Below, one piece after another: positions 2,855 to 46,373 of a stretch of 47,333 bases of DNA (the stretch's first letter is position 1; each line of letters opens with the position of its first letter). The notes under the pieces are model-generated. The model was not told where the DNA came from. It did not search any database and worked only from the letters and a program-made list of their open reading frames with translations. This DNA comes from Alphaproteobacteria bacterium (lineage in GTDB: Bacteria; Pseudomonadota; Alphaproteobacteria; UBA9219). Both the position numbers and the translations under genes were made by a program. The stretch covers positions 1 through 47,333 of the forward strand of contig JAQUYN010000002.1 in the NCBI GenBank assembly GCA_028691835.1. The letters run 5' to 3'.

Positions 2855-3535
2855 TCAATTTTGTCGTACATCATCGTACTTTTTGTCGGCAACAGATAGC
2901 GCGGGAGGCTTCGATATGCTCCAGATAAGTTCAAAGAGATTTCGTTGCGCCGCAGCTACATGCTGGTTTTTAACAATGACTGCACTTGCATCTGCGCCCG
3001 TCAATGGATCCAGTATCATCGTTGCGACTTTGTTGTCATAAATAACGATGGTGTTGTTATGAAAAAATTGGTTCGGCAAGCAGCGGTACTCATTAAGGTT
3101 GCCCATAAGATAGCTGTCTTTCTCATGAACAAGCGAGCGCATACGAATGCCCTGCTTTCTTAAGCGGTTGTACATTTCAACAACGGGCGGGGGAGAGACT
3201 TTGTCTCGCACACACGCAAAAAGAGCTTCACTTTTCTTTGTTCCTTGAAGAGATGTGATAATGTCCTCGAGAACGCGCACAAAGACGAGGTCTCCGGTGA
3301 TTGTTCTGACCACATCTTTTTGTAGAACAACGCCATTGTTTCCGATAAGCTCTATTCCAGCACGAACTAAAACATCATGTATTTTTGTTATAGTACGCTC
3401 TTCTGGAAATGTGATCTCATTTTCAAAACGATGTATGGTATGCTCGCTAACGCCCGCATAACCGGAAAGATCGGCGCGAGACCAGTTCAGGAGTGCTCGA
3501 GCAGCGCGCAGTTGCGATGGAGAAAGAAGAAGCAT
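2855..3535 (-). CDS. XRE regulator with effector domain (array member 2)
   Basis: The 226 aa protein has an N-terminal LSPSQLRAARALLNWSRADL block and a helix-turn-helix with recognition helix VSEHTIHRFENE. The effector domain shows NEYRCLPNQF, IVIYDNKVATMILD and a closing LFELIW helix. It belongs to the LSPSQLRAARALLNWSRADL subgroup with the genes at 3551 and 4226. Its middle part (RMRSLVHEKDSYL) instead resembles the members at 5735 and 6437 (FRFLVEEGDTFL), which suggests mixing of halves between subgroups. It is the last gene of a three-gene operon, 15 bp after the gene at 3551. Confidence 0.85.
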   Translation of the reverse strand: MLLLSPSQLRAARALLNWSRADLSGYAGVSEHTIHRFENEITFPEERTITKIHDVLVRAGIELIGNNGVVLQKDVVRTITGDLVFVRVLEDIITSLQGTKKSEALFACVRDKVSPPPVVEMYNRLRKQGIRMRSLVHEKDSYLMGNLNEYRCLPNQFFHNNTIVIYDNKVATMILDPLTGADASAVIVKNQHVAAAQRNLFELIWSISKPPALSVADKKYDDVRQN

Positions 3536-3550
3536 TCAGTGGTTCCTGCT

Positions 3551-4216
3551 CTATTTTGCGAAATTGCTTTTTGAAGGAGGTTTCGCTTGTTTCCACGCAA
3601 CATCGAAGCTTTTCCGATAACCTTCTGCCATAGGTGCTGATCTAATAACAACAATATGAGGTGAAGCTTCGTCCACATAAGAAACGAGTGCTAAAGAATC
3701 ACCAAACACATAAAAGCCTATCGATGAATCAGGCTGCAGTAACGGGCATCTGAATTGTATATAGCCGTATGTGTTGAAATCGCATTTGGTCGTCAGAACC
3801 CGAACAGTTATTAAACCACGATCGAATAATTCCTTCATACGCTTGCGGTGCATGTCGGGATTTTTGCGAAGCTTTCGCAACACAGTTTCGTCATAAATGT
3901 TAGCACACACATCTCCGCCGCAACGAAGTAGCTCCTCATAATTATAATCATAGAAAGCATCAACGCGTTCGGCCCCATCAAACACCATAATATCATCCGG
4001 CTTGAACCGCACCCCATCATGATCGGTAAAATCAATCCCAGCTGCTTCAAGTGCTGTTAATAATCTATGTGTTGTCTGTGTTTCAGGCTTATGAGTGCCA
4101 TTCTCAAAACGATGAATAGTTTGTTCACTGACGCCTGTCCTCTTCGATAGATCGGCCCTAGACCAGTTCAGAAGAGCTCGTGCAGCGCGAAGTTGGGATG
4201 GGGATATTTGCGTCAT
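3551..4216 (-). CDS. XRE regulator with effector domain (array member 3)
   Basis: The 221 aa protein has the LRAARALLNWSRADLS helix-turn-helix with VSEQTIHRFENGTHKP as recognition region, and the linker DFTDHDGVRFKPDD. Its effector domain contains YIQFRCPLLQ, GFYVFGDSLALVSYVDE and a closing FDVAWKQ helix. The YGDK element of other members is FGDS here, so a putative active-site lysine is absent. It is very similar to the neighbour at 4226 over its whole length, so the two are recent tandem duplicates. It is the middle gene of the - strand operon, 9 bp after the gene at 4226. An AGGAAA site precedes the start. Confidence 0.85.
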   Translation of the reverse strand: MTQISPSQLRAARALLNWSRADLSKRTGVSEQTIHRFENGTHKPETQTTHRLLTALEAAGIDFTDHDGVRFKPDDIMVFDGAERVDAFYDYNYEELLRCGGDVCANIYDETVLRKLRKNPDMHRKRMKELFDRGLITVRVLTTKCDFNTYGYIQFRCPLLQPDSSIGFYVFGDSLALVSYVDEASPHIVVIRSAPMAEGYRKSFDVAWKQAKPPSKSNFAK

Positions 4217-33774: not shown

Positions 33775-34851
33775 CTACACGTTTTCGGGCTTTTCCGAAA
33801 GCTTTCCCTTCTCAATTCGCAAAAAGCGCGCGCCGATTGCGTTCACAAAGCTACGGTCATGCGAGACGAGCAAGCATGTTGCGTTTTGCGCCAAGATTTC
33901 GGTTTCCAGCTTTTCCTGTCCCGGAATATCGACGTGGTTAGTCGGTTCATCCAGCAGATAGAAGTTCGGCTCCGTCAATCGCAAGACCAACAGGCCAAGC
34001 CGCGCTTTCTGGCCGAGCGAGAAAGCCTTAATCGGACAGCTTTGCCGGCCAACGGGAAACCCCGCGCCAGCCAAAAGCGTTCGGCTGCGCTGATCGCCCA
34101 AACGGAAACAGTTTGTAATGATGTCGAACGGCGTTTCATGGTCGGGCAATTGCGACATTTTCTGATCGGCATAGCCGACAACGACCGTAGGGCTGACCTG
34201 TGCGCTTTCGGCATTTGCGGGATCGGTAAAAGCGCGATGGATCAATTTGACTAATTGCGATTTTCCTGCCCCGTTCGCGCCGAGCAGGACGATACGGTCG
34301 CCCTGAAAGACCTTCAGTTTGCCAGTCTTAAAGAGCGCCTTGCCGTCAGGTGTGCGCACGATCACATCATCCAAAGACAGCAAGACCCGCGCATGCGTGT
34401 CGCGGCTGCTCAGCCGGATTTGCCCCGTGCGTTCCTTGTGCGGCTCCTTCAGATTGTTTTTGATCTCGGCGGCACGAGCGGCAACTTGCTTCGCTTTCTT
34501 AAGCACGTTGTCGCATCCGCTGTTGATGCCGATGTTTTTCAGTTCATTGGCGCTGCGGCGCAAACGGTTGGCTTCCTTAAGGTCTTGTTCCAGTCTCGTT
34601 TGATCTGCCGCATCGTCTTCCGTCAAAAGTCCCTTGGCGATACTGTAGGCATGCGCGTACAGCTTTGAGACTTTCGGCCTCAAAAACAGCGTGTGCGTCG
34701 TGCAGGCGTCCAAAAACCGCCTGTCATGGCTAACAATCACCACCGGCATTCGTCCGGCGTTCTCGCCAAGCCAGCGTTCGAGAAACTGGATTTTGGACAA
34801 ATCCAGATGGTTCGTCGGCTCGTCCAGAAGCAAGGCATCGTGCGTCAGCTT
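33775..34851 (-). pseudogene. ABC-F ATPase lacking its N-terminal half
   Basis: ABC-F proteins are soluble ATPases with two ABC domains that act on ribosomes, some giving antibiotic resistance. Here the homology starts within the first ABC domain at LLLDEPTNHLDL. It continues through the linker and a complete second domain (P-loop GANGAGKSQ, signature SLGQKARLGL, YLLDEPTNHVD, LVSHDRSF). The first P-loop and signature are missing. Upstream of about 34851 the frame remains open to 35100, but only as the antisense of a recombinase. The gene was therefore truncated by the rearrangement that brought in the serine-recombinase remnant. Confidence 0.8.
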
Positions 34852-35607
34852 GGTACTGCCGGACGCACGACAAAGGCTTGGACGACACAAGATGGTCGCC
34901 AACACGAAGGAAAGCCCATCGACAAGCAGTACATTTATCGGATCCTGCACAATCGTGTGTATCTGGGCGAAGCCGTCCATAAAGGAAAGTCCTTTCCTGG
35001 CGAACACAAGGCGATCATCGATCCCCCGCTTTGGGACGAGACACACAGAATTCTTGCGCGCGCGCCACAGACGCGCGGCAATATCAGCCGCACGCGCCAA
35101 CCGTCGCTCCTGCGCGGCCTTGTGTGGTGCAAATGCTGCGGCTCGGCCATGACGCCGTCTTCCACGAGCATTCGCGCGCGTGGCGCGTCCTACCGCTATT
35201 ACGTTTGCGTCAAATCGCTTAGAAATGGGCGCGAGGCTTGCCCCATTCGTTCACTTCCCGCGCATGAACTGGAAAGCGCCGTTCTCTACCAAATCAAAGC
35301 GGCATTCAAAACACCGGAACTGATTGCAATGATCAGTCATTGCTTAAGCAAGAGAGATCAAGAAATGGCTTTCGTTACAAAAGGGGAGCGCGAGCGGCTT
35401 GTGCGAAAGGAACTCAGGAATTTTGACGCTCTATGGGAGGAACTCTTTATACCGGAGCAACGCAAGCTGCTCATGCAGCTCCTTGACCGGATCGAGGTTT
35501 CGGAGAACAGCGTAAAACTGCACCTTAAGAAAAATATTCTGACCCAATGGGTCGAGGAAGCGCAGCAACATGGAAACGGACACGATTGTCATTCACCTGT
35601 CGCTTAA
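34852..35607 (+). pseudogene. C-terminal remnant of a large serine recombinase
   Basis: Homology begins at about KAWTTQDGRQHEGKPIDKQY, then YRILHNRVYLGEAVHKG, the zinc-ribbon CKCCGSAMTP...YYVCVKSLRNGREACP, and the coiled-coil tail ending near 35607. The catalytic N-terminal domain with the active-site serine is missing. The junction with the truncated ABC-F gene is at about 34850. The open frame extends to 34693 only as the antisense of ABC-F. The remnant cannot recombine by itself. It is followed by the small helix-turn-helix gene that usually accompanies such recombinases. Confidence 0.8.
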
Positions 35608-35959
35608 GCCAAGGCGTCGCGCAGGCCGGAAGTACCTTATCGCTCCCGACGGTGCTACAACGCCTGCGATGGGTGAAACACCACAGCTGCAAACAATGCA
35701 AAAAGCTCTCGTGAGGGCACACCGATGGCGGCAAGAAATTGAAAGCGGCTCTTATGACAGCATTACTGATTTTGCGCGCAGGAGCCGCCAAGACGAGGCC
35801 TACGTGCTGAGGCAGCTTTCGCTGACGTTTTTAGCTCCGACAATTGTCGAGGCCATCCTCAATAATGCCCAACCGCGTTATCTTACGCTTCAGCATCTAT
35901 ATAATCTGACAACCTTGATCTGGGGGGAGCAGGAGACAAATCTTTTGCTTCATGAATAA
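35570..35959 (+). CDS. Recombinase-associated small helix-turn-helix protein
   Basis: The 129 aa protein overlaps the recombinase end. It has RAHRWRQEIESGSYDSITDFARRS, then DEAYVLRQLSLTFLAPTIVEAILN, a ParB/KorB-like helix-turn-helix arrangement. This small gene type is found directly downstream of large serine recombinases in alphaproteobacteria. The protein itself looks intact although its recombinase is truncated. A role in controlling recombination direction or binding the attachment site is inferred from context. Confidence 0.65.
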   Translation: METDTIVIHLSLKPRRRAGRKYLIAPDGATTPAMGETPQLQTMQKALVRAHRWRQEIESGSYDSITDFARRSRQDEAYVLRQLSLTFLAPTIVEAILNNAQPRYLTLQHLYNLTTLIWGEQETNLLLHE

Positions 35960-35963
35960 TGAT

Positions 35964-37877
35964 TCAAGAAAAGATTTTTAACGTAGGATCATCTCGCGTT
36001 GATGCTTTTCCAACTGTGTATTTGTCCGTATCAAGGTCAGTCGCCACCATAGCAGTCGCAAATATGATCTGGTGCTCAACATCAGTGGAATCTGAAATAT
36101 TTACCATCAAATGCTGAAAGTTCTGGCTTCTGACAGCCTCCATCCCTTTGTCTTCAATAGTATCAATAAGACAGAAGCGAGGATGGCGAAAGAACGGTTC
36201 TTTGAGAGCAGCAGCCAACATGCCAACAAAAAAACTACTTTTCAAAATAGCTCGAGAACTCGCGGAAAAATATGGTTGCCCATCAACGGTTATGTTGTTA
36301 GCCGCAAAATCAAATTGGATGTTTTGGGCATGCTCGAAACTATCCTGTCGGCGTAAATCTTTGTGCAATAGATCCCGAATTTCGTCCGATACTAGAGTAT
36401 ATGCACGAGATAAACGCTTTTGTTGTTCTGCGTTGCGAATATCATTGTCGGCACGCAATCTGGTCATCTCTGCGTTAAACTCCACCTTTTTCTTTGACAG
36501 GGCATCAATAAGCTGGATGATCGAAGCCTTGTTCTCTAAATCTTCAATCTCTCGGTCAAGGTATCCCGCCTGTCTATGCAATTCCCTCAAAATATCTTGA
36601 GCTTCGCTTGTTGGCAGTTTTCTTGTATCAACCAAGCGAATTGATGCGGATTTCCATAGCTCCGTTGTTGTCCGTATTACTTCGAGCAGCCTGCCAGCTT
36701 CAGCCTGCCTGCGCTCCTGTAGGGTCTTGGATTGACGAAGCTGAAGTGCGATATCATTTATCAACGCAACAATTCGCCCTTTGGTTCGCTCAGAATCGAA
36801 AGGGGTTTTACACAAGTGGCAAGCATGATCTGTTGTTTCTGCATCAATGGGAGCGAAACAAGCCGGGCAGGAAAGAAAACGCATCTCACCAATGTGATCG
36901 GCAACCATGCCCGCATCGTTTAATGCTTTAAGCTTCTGCTCGTGACTTGCAATGAATGCGTTAGAGTCTGCAATTGCAAAGGCAATAGAATCATACTCCT
37001 CTTGCAATTTTCCAAGACTTTCCTGAAGAACTTGCACTTCCTTGTAGATGTCATCCTGGGCTTTAAGTGTCAAAGGATCTGTAGTCGGGCTAGAGAATGA
37101 TTGTTTTTCTGCGTCTTCTATTTCTTTTCTCAGTGCATTCCGGCGATCAGTGAGGGACAAGCGTTCCCCCGCCACCCAATCGAGTGTCATCGCGTCTTGA
37201 GTTTTTCCTAACACTGCGATTAAACTGCGAAGCTCTGCACTGACCGACTCGAACTGTTTGTTGACTTCTCTTATTCGTAATTCATTCTCGTAGAGTTGAT
37301 TATCATAAACCCCACACACAAGACGCCCAAGGGCTTCGCGAAGAGAGGGGGGATCAAACCGCTCAAACTTGAAAATATGTTCAATGGGACTTAGCTGGTC
37401 TGCGTACAACAAACGCAACAGCTGATGCATCGTTATGTTGGCCGAAGAATCATTTTTTACTTCGGGCATCTGATATAGTCGAAACAATGCCTGTGAAAAA
37501 CTCTCTTTGCCGTTGGATCGTTTGTAAGGATAGCGGCTCCATTCAGCCATGGGGGCTCTTAAAGCATCGTCAATCGCGCCACCAAATATATCCATAGGTT
37601 GACCCGTTTGCGAAGATATTTCTCTGCTTAATGTGGCAGGCTTGCCATTGATGAGCACCTCCACCATTACGCGCGAGCAAAGAAGAGCAACCTCGCTCCA
37701 GTCGGCAAGATCCCCACCGAGGGCATAAAACAAAAAGTTAAGGATAGTGGATTTTCCAGAAGAATTTTCCCCGCGAATTATATTCACACCGCGATGAAAA
37801 CGCTCATCATAAACAGCGGATTTATCCCGTTCAATTAGCATTCGCGTCACAATGAGTGATGGATCAAGCCGCGTCAT
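35964..37877 (-). CDS. ABC-three-component (ABC-3C) system ATPase, SMC/Rad50-like
   Basis: The 637 aa protein has a Walker A GENSSGKST near residue 36, a long coiled-coil middle (about residues 200-470) interrupted by a zinc-hook-like pair (CPAC near 336, CHLC about 17 residues later), and a C-terminal Walker B region LIDTIEDKGME. This is the organisation of the SMC-like ATPases of predicted ABC-3C conflict systems. It is the last gene of a four-gene - strand operon and overlaps the middle-component gene by 14 bp. The ATPase is thought to sense or transduce an invasion signal to the effector component. It was identified from motifs and operon context. A general Rad50-like repair ATPase is less likely given the neighbours. 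Confidence 0.75.
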   Translation of the reverse strand: MTRLDPSLIVTRMLIERDKSAVYDERFHRGVNIIRGENSSGKSTILNFLFYALGGDLADWSEVALLCSRVMVEVLINGKPATLSREISSQTGQPMDIFGGAIDDALRAPMAEWSRYPYKRSNGKESFSQALFRLYQMPEVKNDSSANITMHQLLRLLYADQLSPIEHIFKFERFDPPSLREALGRLVCGVYDNQLYENELRIREVNKQFESVSAELRSLIAVLGKTQDAMTLDWVAGERLSLTDRRNALRKEIEDAEKQSFSSPTTDPLTLKAQDDIYKEVQVLQESLGKLQEEYDSIAFAIADSNAFIASHEQKLKALNDAGMVADHIGEMRFLSCPACFAPIDAETTDHACHLCKTPFDSERTKGRIVALINDIALQLRQSKTLQERRQAEAGRLLEVIRTTTELWKSASIRLVDTRKLPTSEAQDILRELHRQAGYLDREIEDLENKASIIQLIDALSKKKVEFNAEMTRLRADNDIRNAEQQKRLSRAYTLVSDEIRDLLHKDLRRQDSFEHAQNIQFDFAANNITVDGQPYFSASSRAILKSSFFVGMLAAALKEPFFRHPRFCLIDTIEDKGMEAVRSQNFQHLMVNISDSTDVEHQIIFATAMVATDLDTDKYTVGKASTRDDPTLKIFS

Positions 37878-38385
37878 AAAAGAACTCCATCAGGCCTGAA
37901 CGACCCTTTAATCCATTTGCTCCCAATAATTCATATTGCGTGCCCAGAATCTGCAAAAAATCCATAAGATCAAACTGGTTCGTATTATCTTCGGCAACCC
38001 GAAGTGCAAGGTCGTTAGGTAAATCCTTCAACGTGGCCGCAACAATCCCAATGTCATATTTCTCACGAGAAATAAGGCCTGTTTTCGCCAGTGTTTCTAG
38101 CGCAGCAGTTTGAATGGAGGACATGCGATTGAAAAGGATGCGATCCTCTGGGATCTCACCATATGGCCGTGCGTAAGCATAACTGTCAGAAAGTTTTCGA
38201 TATTTCCGATGCTGCTGCTGAAGTCGAATACTATCAATTCTAAACGGGAGCAAGAGATAGTAGTCCAGTATGCGCAGATGATCCTTGGGTAAGGACACAA
38301 AGCGAAGAACACTTTCTCTCAAACGCAATAAACGATAGGTTGCGTGAAACGGATCAAATGCGGGCTGATAAGAAAGCTGCGTCAT
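37864..38385 (-). CDS. ABC-3C system middle component
   Basis: The 173 aa protein starts at the ATG at 38385, which overlaps the upstream stop as ATGA; the longer frame to 38475 is a shadow. It opens with YQPAFDPFHATYRLLRLRES, then LPKDHLRILDYYLLLPFRID, and continues helical. This resembles the middle-component proteins of ABC-3C systems, which bridge the ATPase and the effector. The exact middle-component subclass (MC5 fits best by eye) is not certain. The 4-bp overlap upstream and 14-bp overlap downstream indicate strict co-translation with its partners. Confidence 0.65.
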   Translation of the reverse strand: MTQLSYQPAFDPFHATYRLLRLRESVLRFVSLPKDHLRILDYYLLLPFRIDSIRLQQQHRKYRKLSDSYAYARPYGEIPEDRILFNRMSSIQTAALETLAKTGLISREKYDIGIVAATLKDLPNDLALRVAEDNTNQFDLMDFLQILGTQYELLGANGLKGRSGLMEFFYDAA

Positions 38386-38945
38386 TTGTGCCACCTGACA
38401 AAACATTGCTCGGCTAGCCAATAGACCATCCCCATTGCCATGCCGTGATGCATCTTCAACGTCGTCGCGCCACACTCTGCAACTATAGGTTCAACGATTT
38501 TTTGACTTACCATCTCATTAATCTCACTTTCACGTAAATTCCCAATTTGAGGCAACACGTGATATGAAAACTCATGCTCGGCCTTGGCCAGAAGATAAAC
38601 AAAGATCTCTTGAGCTGAAGAGTAAAGAGACCATTTATCCAACATCTTGACGAACATCTCTTTCTTTTCAAGTGCCAACAGCACTTCGTGTTCGCGCCCA
38701 CCTTTCTTCAATTTAGCCTCAAGTCCCGTTATGCCATCCGTTGCTTTTTGTTCGTAATAATAGCGCAACCTGTCAATCATCGCGCGAACTTGTGCGCTAT
38801 CTTCAATTTCCTGCTGTAATTTGACAAGTAACTGTTCAATAACTGTGGCAGTTGGCGATGGGGGCAGATGATAATGCATATCTCCTGCAATGATATCACG
38901 GCCAGCAGTAGCATTCCTCTGATCTACGTTTTGTGGATGCGACAT
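38382..38945 (-). CDS. ABC-3C system protein with GRDI motif and helical C-terminal domain
   Basis: The 187 aa protein has a short N-terminal tag VDQRNATAGRDIIAGD, then a linker with HYHLPPSP. A mainly helical body follows (coiled-coil prone, about residues 45-100) with a C-terminal domain that includes EIFVYLLAKAEHEFSYH and HHGMAMGMVYWLAEQCF. The tag and a helical C-terminal domain are typical of the third, effector/scaffold component of ABC-3C systems. The same tag ends the small membrane protein encoded 21 bp upstream. No nuclease or other catalytic motif is visible, so how it harms an invader or cell is open. Confidence 0.65.
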   Translation of the reverse strand: MSHPQNVDQRNATAGRDIIAGDMHYHLPPSPTATVIEQLLVKLQQEIEDSAQVRAMIDRLRYYYEQKATDGITGLEAKLKKGGREHEVLLALEKKEMFVKMLDKWSLYSSAQEIFVYLLAKAEHEFSYHVLPQIGNLRESEINEMVSQKIVEPIVAECGATTLKMHHGMAMGMVYWLAEQCFVRWHK

Positions 38946-38966
38946 TCAAACCAATCTTGTTAGATG

Positions 38967-39137
38967 CTATTTGTTTTTATTGCCGCCCACGATATCTCTT
39001 CCGGCGTGGGCACCACTTTGATCAACGATTCTTGATTTTCCGGACGCGGTAACATTTTTTTTAAATTGCAAAGTCAGTAACGAGCCTCCAGCAAGGCCCA
39101 CTATAAAACTCACAAGATGGCTTATAATACTGTCCAT
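38967..39137 (-). CDS. Small membrane protein of the ABC-3C operon (56 aa)
   Basis: This short gene encodes MDSIISHLVSF, one membrane span (IVGLAGGSLLTLQF), a basic stretch, and the tail VDQSGAHAGRDIVGGNKNK. The tail repeats the GRDI(V/I)xG tag of the next protein. An AAGGAG site lies 5 nt before the ATG at 39137, and the stop is 21 bp before the next start. Shared motif, strand and spacing make it a real operon member. It may anchor the complex at the membrane or be the membrane-active effector. It would be missed by length cut-offs of 60 residues. Confidence 0.7.
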   Translation of the reverse strand: MDSIISHLVSFIVGLAGGSLLTLQFKKNVTASGKSRIVDQSGAHAGRDIVGGNKNK

Positions 39138-39706: not shown

Positions 39707-39863
39707 TATTACATCTTTTGTTTTGGCCGTTTTTTCTATCCATTTGATAATGCTGGAATTCATCATGTAGACCCCATTTTTCTTCGCTCCACGCCGTTCG
39801 ATCAAATTGAGTTTGATCATCTCCGCAATGTCGCGTCGTGCCGTCCTCTCCGTGACGCGCCAT
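39704..39863 (-). pseudogene. Truncated copy of the C-terminal domain of the regulator at 45780
   Basis: The segment 39765-39863 encodes WRVTERTARRDIAEMIKLNL and the following residues to GVY. It is identical, but for one base, to the C-terminal winged-helix end of the regulator at 45780-46373. Upstream sequence is unrelated, so the N-terminal domain is missing and the short open frame there is probably not expressed. Downstream the frame continues 20 codons with unrelated sequence. Confidence 0.65.
39765..39863. repeat. 99-bp direct repeat, left copy
   Basis: Its 99 bp equal those at 45790-45888 with one visible mismatch (GTCGCGTCG against GTCGCGCCG). The two copies are 6,025 bp apart and flank the binding protein and chemoreceptor genes. 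Confidence 0.85.
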
Positions 39864-40153
39864 TTCTTCCGCCTCCTATGCGAAAGCCCTCTTGGCGGCA
39901 ACACCGAAGGATCAACTTATTGATCCAGGCAAACCCAAGAACATCAGCCGTGGATCATGTTTCACGGCTCGACGCTCCCGGGTTCGATGACCAAAAGGCA
40001 TTTTGAAGTGTTACGCGCAGCATTAAAAGGACCTCAACGTCAATGATTTTCTTGACTTTGCTTAAGCGCATGATAATTTTTTGGCTAAGCGGAATCTTCC
40101 TCTGCTTTTGTTGTCCTTGATGAAGTCCTCCCCTGACTGAAAGGCGCCTCCCC

Positions 40154-45779: not shown

Positions 45780-46373
45780 TCACAAAGGGATGTAGACCCC
45801 ATTTTTCTTCGCTCCACGCCGTTCGATCAAATTGAGTTTGATCATCTCCGCAATGTCGCGCCGTGCCGTCCTCTCCGTGACGCGCCATCTCTTTCTGAGA
45901 CTTTCCGCAGTAGGCGCAAACCCGTCGCGAATCTCAGCTAGAAACCAGCTTTGGCGTTCATTCAAATCATCGGGCCACGGATTTATTGTGACATTTGATG
46001 TGACATCGCTTCCGCCACTTCGGCCAGCTATAGCGCCGTTGTGCGCCTGATTGCCTCCCCCGTTGCGCGCTCTTTCAGAAAGAAAAAACGGGGCCAAGGA
46101 CGCGCACCCAACCTCGACTAAGAAAGCCTCGAACAAGGAAGGAGAAATGCGCACAAGAACAAGAAAATGCGCTGAACTTGGAGTGTTTTGACCATTGTAC
46201 CATTTCTTGACCGCTTCCAGATTGACGTCGATTTCACGACTGATGGCGCGGGCTACAAGCTTCACTTTCGGGAAGTCTTTGCGCAACGCCGTTCTTACCA
46301 TATTGGCAATTTCTTGATCCAAAACGCGAGACGATTTCTTGGGTAAAACTTTACCCATCTTCGAGAAGGACAT
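45780..46373 (-). CDS. Two-domain helix-turn-helix regulator
   Basis: In the 197 aa protein the N-terminal half has a Cro-like helix-turn-helix (KLVARAISREIDVNLEAVKKWYNG, then TPSSAHFLVLVRISP). The linker is glycine/asparagine-rich (residues about 105-130). The C-terminal part is a DeoR-like winged helix (WFLAEIRDGFAPTAESLRKRW followed by RVTERTARRDIAEMIKLNLI). A GGAGAG site precedes the ATG at 46373. It is divergent from the serine recombinase, with an 8-bp palindrome between them, so it may repress the recombinase and itself. The last 33 codons are duplicated at 39765-39863. Confidence 0.75.
   Translation of the reverse strand: MSFSKMGKVLPKKSSRVLDQEIANMVRTALRKDFPKVKLVARAISREIDVNLEAVKKWYNGQNTPSSAHFLVLVRISPSLFEAFLVEVGCASLAPFFLSERARNGGGNQAHNGAIAGRSGGSDVTSNVTINPWPDDLNERQSWFLAEIRDGFAPTAESLRKRWRVTERTARRDIAEMIKLNLIERRGAKKNGVYIPL
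45790..45888. repeat. 99-bp direct repeat, right copy
   Basis: This is the counterpart of 39765-39863 with one mismatch. It lies inside the intact regulator gene, so it is probably the source copy and the left one the derivative. Confidence 0.85.

Follow-up and report, generated by a model that had tools for sequence, protein, structure and literature searches.

The window analysed here is a stretch of 47,333 nucleotides from an alphaproteobacterial contig (JAQUYN010000002.1, lineage UBA9219). Between positions 39137 and 35964 its minus strand carries four intact genes, transcribed in the order membrane protein, CTD9 protein, middle component, ATPase, that on their sequence make up an ABC-three-component (ABC-3C) system of Lamassu-like type. 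The first gene (38967..39137) encodes a tiny predicted membrane protein of 56 amino acids (aa) and has the ribosome-site-like sequence AAGGAG 5' of its ATG. It is followed by the genes for the CTD9 or GRDI protein (38382..38945, 187 aa), for the middle component MC5 in the position of LmuC (37864..38385, 173 aa from its ATG) and for a Rad50/SMC-like ABC ATPase resembling LmuB (35964..37877, 637 aa). The gap of 21 bp and the overlaps of 4 bp and 14 bp, which a first-pass annotation had given for these genes, are exact; the 4-bp overlap reads ATGA, the ATG of the middle component overlapping the CTD9 stop codon, and the two overlaps indicate a single operon, as in other ABC-3C systems. An alternative GTG start at 38475 in the list of open reading frames (ORFs) would give a middle component of 203 aa, and the Pfam MC5 match starts at residue 35 of that form.

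The first-pass annotation had filed the genes as an ABC-3C-type system, and profile searches bore this out. The middle component matched Pfam MC5 at 2.4e-45 (154.8 bits against a cut-off of 25 bits), the second protein matched CTD9 at 6.8e-34 (117.2 bits against 27.9 bits) and the ATPase matched AAA_23 at 4.3e-11. Since MC5 and CTD9 are both named ABC-3C families, one for the middle component and one for the C-terminal domain, and an ABC/SMC-like ATPase accompanies them, the filing is right. The PADLOC LmuB profile matched the ATPase as well (7e-40), covering residues 9-610 of its 637, as expected of a LmuB-type ATPase of Lamassu. This relation to Lamassu was absent from the first-pass annotation, as was the short co-varying motif, described below, that links two of the proteins.

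The CTD9 protein had been expected to be helical and was so in an AlphaFold2 model (mean pLDDT 85.7), with CTD9 at residues 74-185. The six best structural matches were all Lamassu entries, aligned over LmuA C-termini, and CTD9 is predicted to share the fold of the LmuA C-terminal domain. Pfam gave no domain ahead of CTD9, in agreement with the earlier statement that no catalytic effector domain is visible; on this ground, and with the Lamassu folds, an enzyme concealed in the protein was rejected. Residues 1-33, predicted to be disordered, contain a conserved tag of ~17 residues, typically VNQxGAxAGGDIVGGDK, which in the window reads VDQRNATAGRDIIAGDM (38877..38927, minus strand; pLDDT about 50). 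A loose form of the tag pattern fits 115 among 120 listed CTD9 proteins (the window's included; 462 were found), the exceptions being P0008, P0019, P0033, P0074 and P0094, two of which begin within the tag. The same motif is found at the C-terminus of the membrane protein, VDQSGAHAGRDIVGGNKN (38973..39026, minus strand), likewise in a tag predicted to be disordered.

To follow the two copies across genomes, loci were collected by CTD9 and not by the motif: 33 came from genome contigs, 7 from viral contigs and the others from plasmid records and further genomes. This gave 57 locus rows, the window included, after duplicates and one sub-threshold match had been dropped (L036, the same locus as L024; L001 and L046, duplicates of the window; L050, under the Pfam cut-off); two more Dinoroseobacter plasmid matches (H14 and H15) lie outside the counted loci. 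MC5 was found in 52/57 rows and the ATPase in 53/57. CTD9 stands alone in 50 rows, with an intact start in 44, cut short in three (L033, L034 and L041), frame-broken in two (L025 and L043), plus L045 (1366-1848), the sole stand-alone CTD9 locus that has neither motif nor membrane gene nor fused enzyme; the other seven rows are the enzyme fusions described below. Directly upstream of CTD9, a motif-ending small ORF with a hydrophobic helix is present in 43 of the 44 intact-start loci. In the 44th (L066) the membrane gene is frame-broken, MC5 and ATPase are missing, and Mu/TniB/TniQ transposition genes lie downstream. Motif and membrane gene are present in L025 and L043 despite the broken CTD9 frame. 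Four loci (L008, L017, L027 and L035) had more than one candidate membrane ORF, from which the best-scoring was chosen; the divergent loci had one candidate. Three further loci (L084, L095 and L099) were found via the motif and so were not counted; they carry it on both genes, the two copies in L099 being alike only loosely. 'Hypothetical protein' is the only annotation given to the upstream gene of L042, L043 and L063.

A chance origin of the match was ruled out by DNA-pattern scans of a viral collection of 2.9 million contigs. The strict motif pattern hit 3 contigs, every one a CTD9 locus of the set collected before. One looser form hit 6 contigs, comprising 4 CTD9 loci and 2 contigs with one phage-like protein reading GDIVGSDK; another hit 14, comprising 3 CTD9 loci, 1 other motif pair and 10 others, in none of which was there a CTD9 match and seven of which share one sequence; a third hit 9, comprising 2 CTD9 loci, 6 small phage proteins and 1 packaging-region gene. 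Four motif strings did not occur in the literature searched, a set to which the original ABC-3C description did not belong. A further motif pair lies on the minus strand of L096 (genes at 2525-2905 and 3366-3743). One protein (125 aa) has the motif C-terminally and another (126 aa), encoded two genes on, has it N-terminally; L096 gave no ABC-3C match, and use of the tag may extend beyond ABC-3C systems.

Pairing of the tags would predict that a change in either copy is mirrored in its partner. Rare motif variants did appear on both partners in L047, L062, L039, L048 and L049, L047 standing out by the greater length of its membrane protein and by a tag that differs strongly. The score of own partners was reached in 0 of 20,000 permutations with the full set (N=44, which includes the broken L066 and an N-region of L031 set by hand), with representative sets of 37, 27 and 14 loci and with a hand-picked ten-locus set; with 7 very distant loci only, 6 of 20,000 permutations reached it. 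At the level of sequence, the two motif copies thus co-vary between loci. Two results weigh against this: across the whole set the own partner did not score best (the median ranks were 13.5 and 10.5 among 44), and the copies in L031 pair weakly. Cross-reaction among close relatives is therefore to be expected.

A different arrangement was found in seven loci (L057-L061, L064 and L065), in which an alpha/beta-hydrolase is joined N-terminally to CTD9. Four intact fusions were run against Pfam and DUF676 was above cut-off in all; L058 is frame-broken, and L057, L058 and L064 appear by sequence to have the same hydrolase fusion. L058, L060 and L065 are closely related, so the number of independent cases is below seven. 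The motif is absent from all seven fusions and from every plus-strand ORF of those loci. Upstream of the fused gene (498 bases were covered in L057) hydrophobic small ORFs were present in L059, L064 and L065, none of them motif-bearing. The ATPase is present in 7/7 fusion loci, and MC5 in 6/7 by search and in the seventh (L065) by annotation. Because the fusions have neither the motif nor a motif-bearing membrane gene, the tag with its membrane gene and the fused enzyme appear as alternatives in one slot, and an either/or between them is evident in the sequences. The first-pass annotation had suggested that the system may act through the membrane protein, and this idea gains support, the upstream membrane gene being conserved in 43/44 stand-alone loci and absent in 7/7 hydrolase-fusion loci.

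The fusion loci also bear on two other explanations. When two proteins carry an identical short motif, they may share a single binder, and both tags might take turns in one pocket of MC5 or of the ATPase, so that by competition the membrane protein would be an inhibitor or release factor. The rare variants in L039, L047 and L062 would, however, require a third co-varying partner, and the fusion loci retain the ATPase and MC5 without the motif; we regard such a common receptor as distinctly unlikely. Alternatively, the membrane protein might be a guard or antitoxin that holds CTD9 inactive at the membrane, with CTD9 or the ATPase as the toxic component. The membrane gene is a small first gene beside its partner, an arrangement often seen with antitoxins, but the CTD9 protein is without an enzyme domain by Pfam and the fusion loci join an effector to CTD9 with no motif-bearing guard, which makes this reading very improbable.

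The membrane protein itself had no match above any family cut-off in Pfam and PADLOC profile searches; 587 relatives were found, and none of the 120 listed has a Pfam domain. AlphaFold2 places a helix at residues 2-33. Within it a glycine zipper, GxxxGxxxG, a pattern familiar from oligomerising membrane proteins, is conserved in the aligned sequences (G10 in 48/50, G14 in 50/51 and G18 in 48/52; the window has S10, G14 and G18) and recurs in a second, more divergent set of 26 membrane proteins (G10 in 17/25, G14 in 24/26 and G18 in 21/26). The mean net charge is +2.1 after the helix and -1.3 before it; because positive charge marks the inner side under the positive-inside rule, the tag is predicted to be cytoplasmic. 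In L031 (7666-7866) the tag is expanded to about five GGDK-like units with a period of 5, hinting at a solenoid-like stack.

A lone short helix bearing a cytoplasmic tag has the typical form of an anchor, and a non-toxic membrane protein might hold the ABC-3C complex at the inner membrane, at the site of DNA entry or at some partner; the motif pairing accounts for docking just as well. A near-invariant glycine zipper, however, exceeds an anchor's needs. The fusion sister loci do without a motif-bearing membrane gene, so an anchor is not generally required, and no other conserved effector candidate of at least 60 aa was seen in the flanks. An anchor in place of an effector is for these reasons unlikely. 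The flank result comes from an all-against-all comparison of 1709 ORFs (at least 60 aa, up to 4 kb on either side where sequence was available), in which only DCL-family (10 loci) and integrase-like (4 loci) ORFs recurred in at least 4 loci; within the limits of that comparison another flanking gene was rejected as a general effector. The small DCL-family gene lies just 3' of the ATPase in its 10 loci (for example L063, 7957-8268) and is possibly a regulator or accessory.

The first-pass annotation had also pointed to a zinc-hook-like CxxC pair in the ATPase. The pair (CPAC and CHLC) is real, all four cysteines being kept in 42/42 aligned ATPases of related loci. Walker A is kept in 41 of the 42, L061 being without residues in that stretch. 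The residue after the Walker B Asp is Thr in 17 (as in the window), Ile in 17, Asn in 5 and Ser in 3, and never Glu. A passage of a review notes a Glu-to-Gln change in the Walker B of LmuB, from which little ATP hydrolysis was inferred (PMC10586767). Given that inference and the absence of Glu throughout the alignment, the ATPase here likely binds ATP and hardly hydrolyses it.

Our preferred reading, to which we assign a probability of roughly 0.57, is that the fused enzyme of the sister systems has been lost and that the tiny glycine-zipper protein, recruited in trans via the common motif, replaces it. The zinc-hook ATPase, as a dimer that is ATP-bound but barely hydrolysing, would keep CTD9 silent together with MC5 until a DNA structure arising on invasion freed or clustered CTD9. 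The clustered CTD9 tags would then seed a homotypic assembly, perhaps amyloid-like, with the tags that the membrane protein exposes to the cytoplasm. The helices so collected might pack by their glycine zippers into a pore; the membrane would be breached and the infected cell would die or halt, a defence by abortive infection. The step of release and oligomerisation is made plausible by the titles of PDB entries among the structural matches of CTD9, which name LmuACB bound to DNA and an LmuA tetramer.

The motif was also met on the phage side. A scan with GDIVGG[DN]K turned up, on six viral contigs, small proteins that have an MFGW start, a Ser-rich tail and the whole motif (VNQxGAxASGDIVGGNK), including its QxGAxA part, which was outside the search seed; such proteins are those of L097, L098, L100, L101, L103 and L104, and also of L105-L111. 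A protein search gave 46 members, with the motif region in 44 (by reading), the 8-residue core in 37 and the 17-residue pattern in 25, and the motif is among the best-conserved stretches of the family. The gene lies on 7 viral contigs, four of which span 116 to 283 kb. Two loci were read fully and contain many small genes, phage-like by eye; a search of named phages gave no match to this protein. As a lead only, these proteins may be decoys of the ABC-3C tag, which would make the tag a point of phage attack. More tentatively still, one might see here a Rad50-like DNA sensor that kills by prion-like templating onto a pore-forming glycine-zipper peptide, an NLR-free counterpart of the RHIM necrosome, which large phages counter with motif decoys, much as RHIM decoys serve animal viruses; we hold this wider picture to be possible and rather doubtful.

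The island in which the operon lies had been described as recombinase-bounded, and this was so on one side, where a serine recombinase that lacks its N-terminal part adjoins a truncated ABC-F gene; no recombinase was seen on the other. The remnant (34873..35959, plus strand, including a small partner gene at 35570-35959) matched Pfam Recombinase and Zn_ribbon_recom and a PHROG recombinase (1.3e-26); with its partner gene it is the island edge and outside the system. At the junction the ABC-F gene runs up to about 34835 and the recombinase starts from about 34873. The two truncated genes together span 33775-35607 of the window. Contig C84, from the same bin, has an ABC-F homologue without interruption (protein 91% identical), beside a relative of the phage tape-measure gene that lies beside the window's island. 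In 1-kb windows the GC fraction is 0.43-0.46 in the island, 0.55-0.61 to its left (30-35.5 kb) and to the right 0.51-0.58 (40-43 kb) and then 0.47-0.48 (43-46 kb), so that the contrast is clear only on the left. A 104-nucleotide direct repeat, 98% identical, occurs at 39765-39868 and 45790-45893; it is the end of a winged-helix-like gene (45780-46373), duplicated at the far island edge.

CTD9 was above cut-off in 5/398 genomes of a phylum sample and in 4/385 of an overlapping class sample, the window's genome being in both. The titled CTD9 loci from genome contigs come from genera that we take to be Alphaproteobacteria and Gammaproteobacteria, and no CTD9 match was found in named phages. Named neighbours in CTD9 loci include DarT, SIR2 and HNH genes and, elsewhere, a set of type II restriction genes with an antitoxin at a greater distance, a setting that fits defence islands.

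The ABC-3C class is predicted to block phages and plasmids. With the ABC-3C systems that have MC5 and CTD9 (PF20291 and PF20285), the window shares the ABC ATPase, both domains and the gene order, and systems of this kind are so named in plasmid records; it differs from them in having no CTD9-fused enzyme and a putative effector in trans by way of the paired tag. The hydrolase-CTD9 fusion loci likewise share CTD9, ATPase and MC5 (that of L065 by annotation), but have a DUF676-like effector in cis and neither the motif nor a motif-bearing membrane gene. If true, our reading would explain how enzyme-free ABC-3C systems can act. ABC-3C is placed within the Lamassu superfamily in the part of the review cited above that concerns it (PMC10586767), and the window resembles Lamassu (LmuA-LmuC-LmuB) and DdmABC in its LmuB-like ATPase, zinc module and altered Walker B, and in a CTD9 model close to the LmuA C-terminus. 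At its N-terminus LmuA has an enzyme, for example a Cap4 nuclease, according to the same review (PMC10586767), whereas the protein here has a predicted disordered tag of ~33 residues with no Pfam domain in that place, and so the system is not a canonical Lamassu. Our reading, if true, would also show that Lamassu-like sensors are able to use a swappable effector in trans rather than in cis.

The placing of the motif, and with it the proposed mode of action, has its closest likeness in NLR/Bell amyloid signalling (BASS motifs) and in fungal HET-S/HELLP. In the former, according to the published description (PMC7889193), adjacent genes encode a small membrane-active effector with a C-terminal motif and a sensor-side protein that has the motif N-terminally. 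Of the 44 intact-start loci collected here, 43 have this same arrangement, with co-variation of the two copies; the likeness is one of layout. No NLR (NACHT/NB-ARC) receptor was found by Pfam among the four proteins and no Bell domain was named; the sensor is Rad50/SMC-like, and the system is thus not a member of NLR/Bell. The idea is open to direct test, since the two tags are short, vary together and come in natural variants. Whether bacteria have NLR-independent signalling amyloids is a question raised in the same paper (PMC7889193), and our reading, if true, bears on it.

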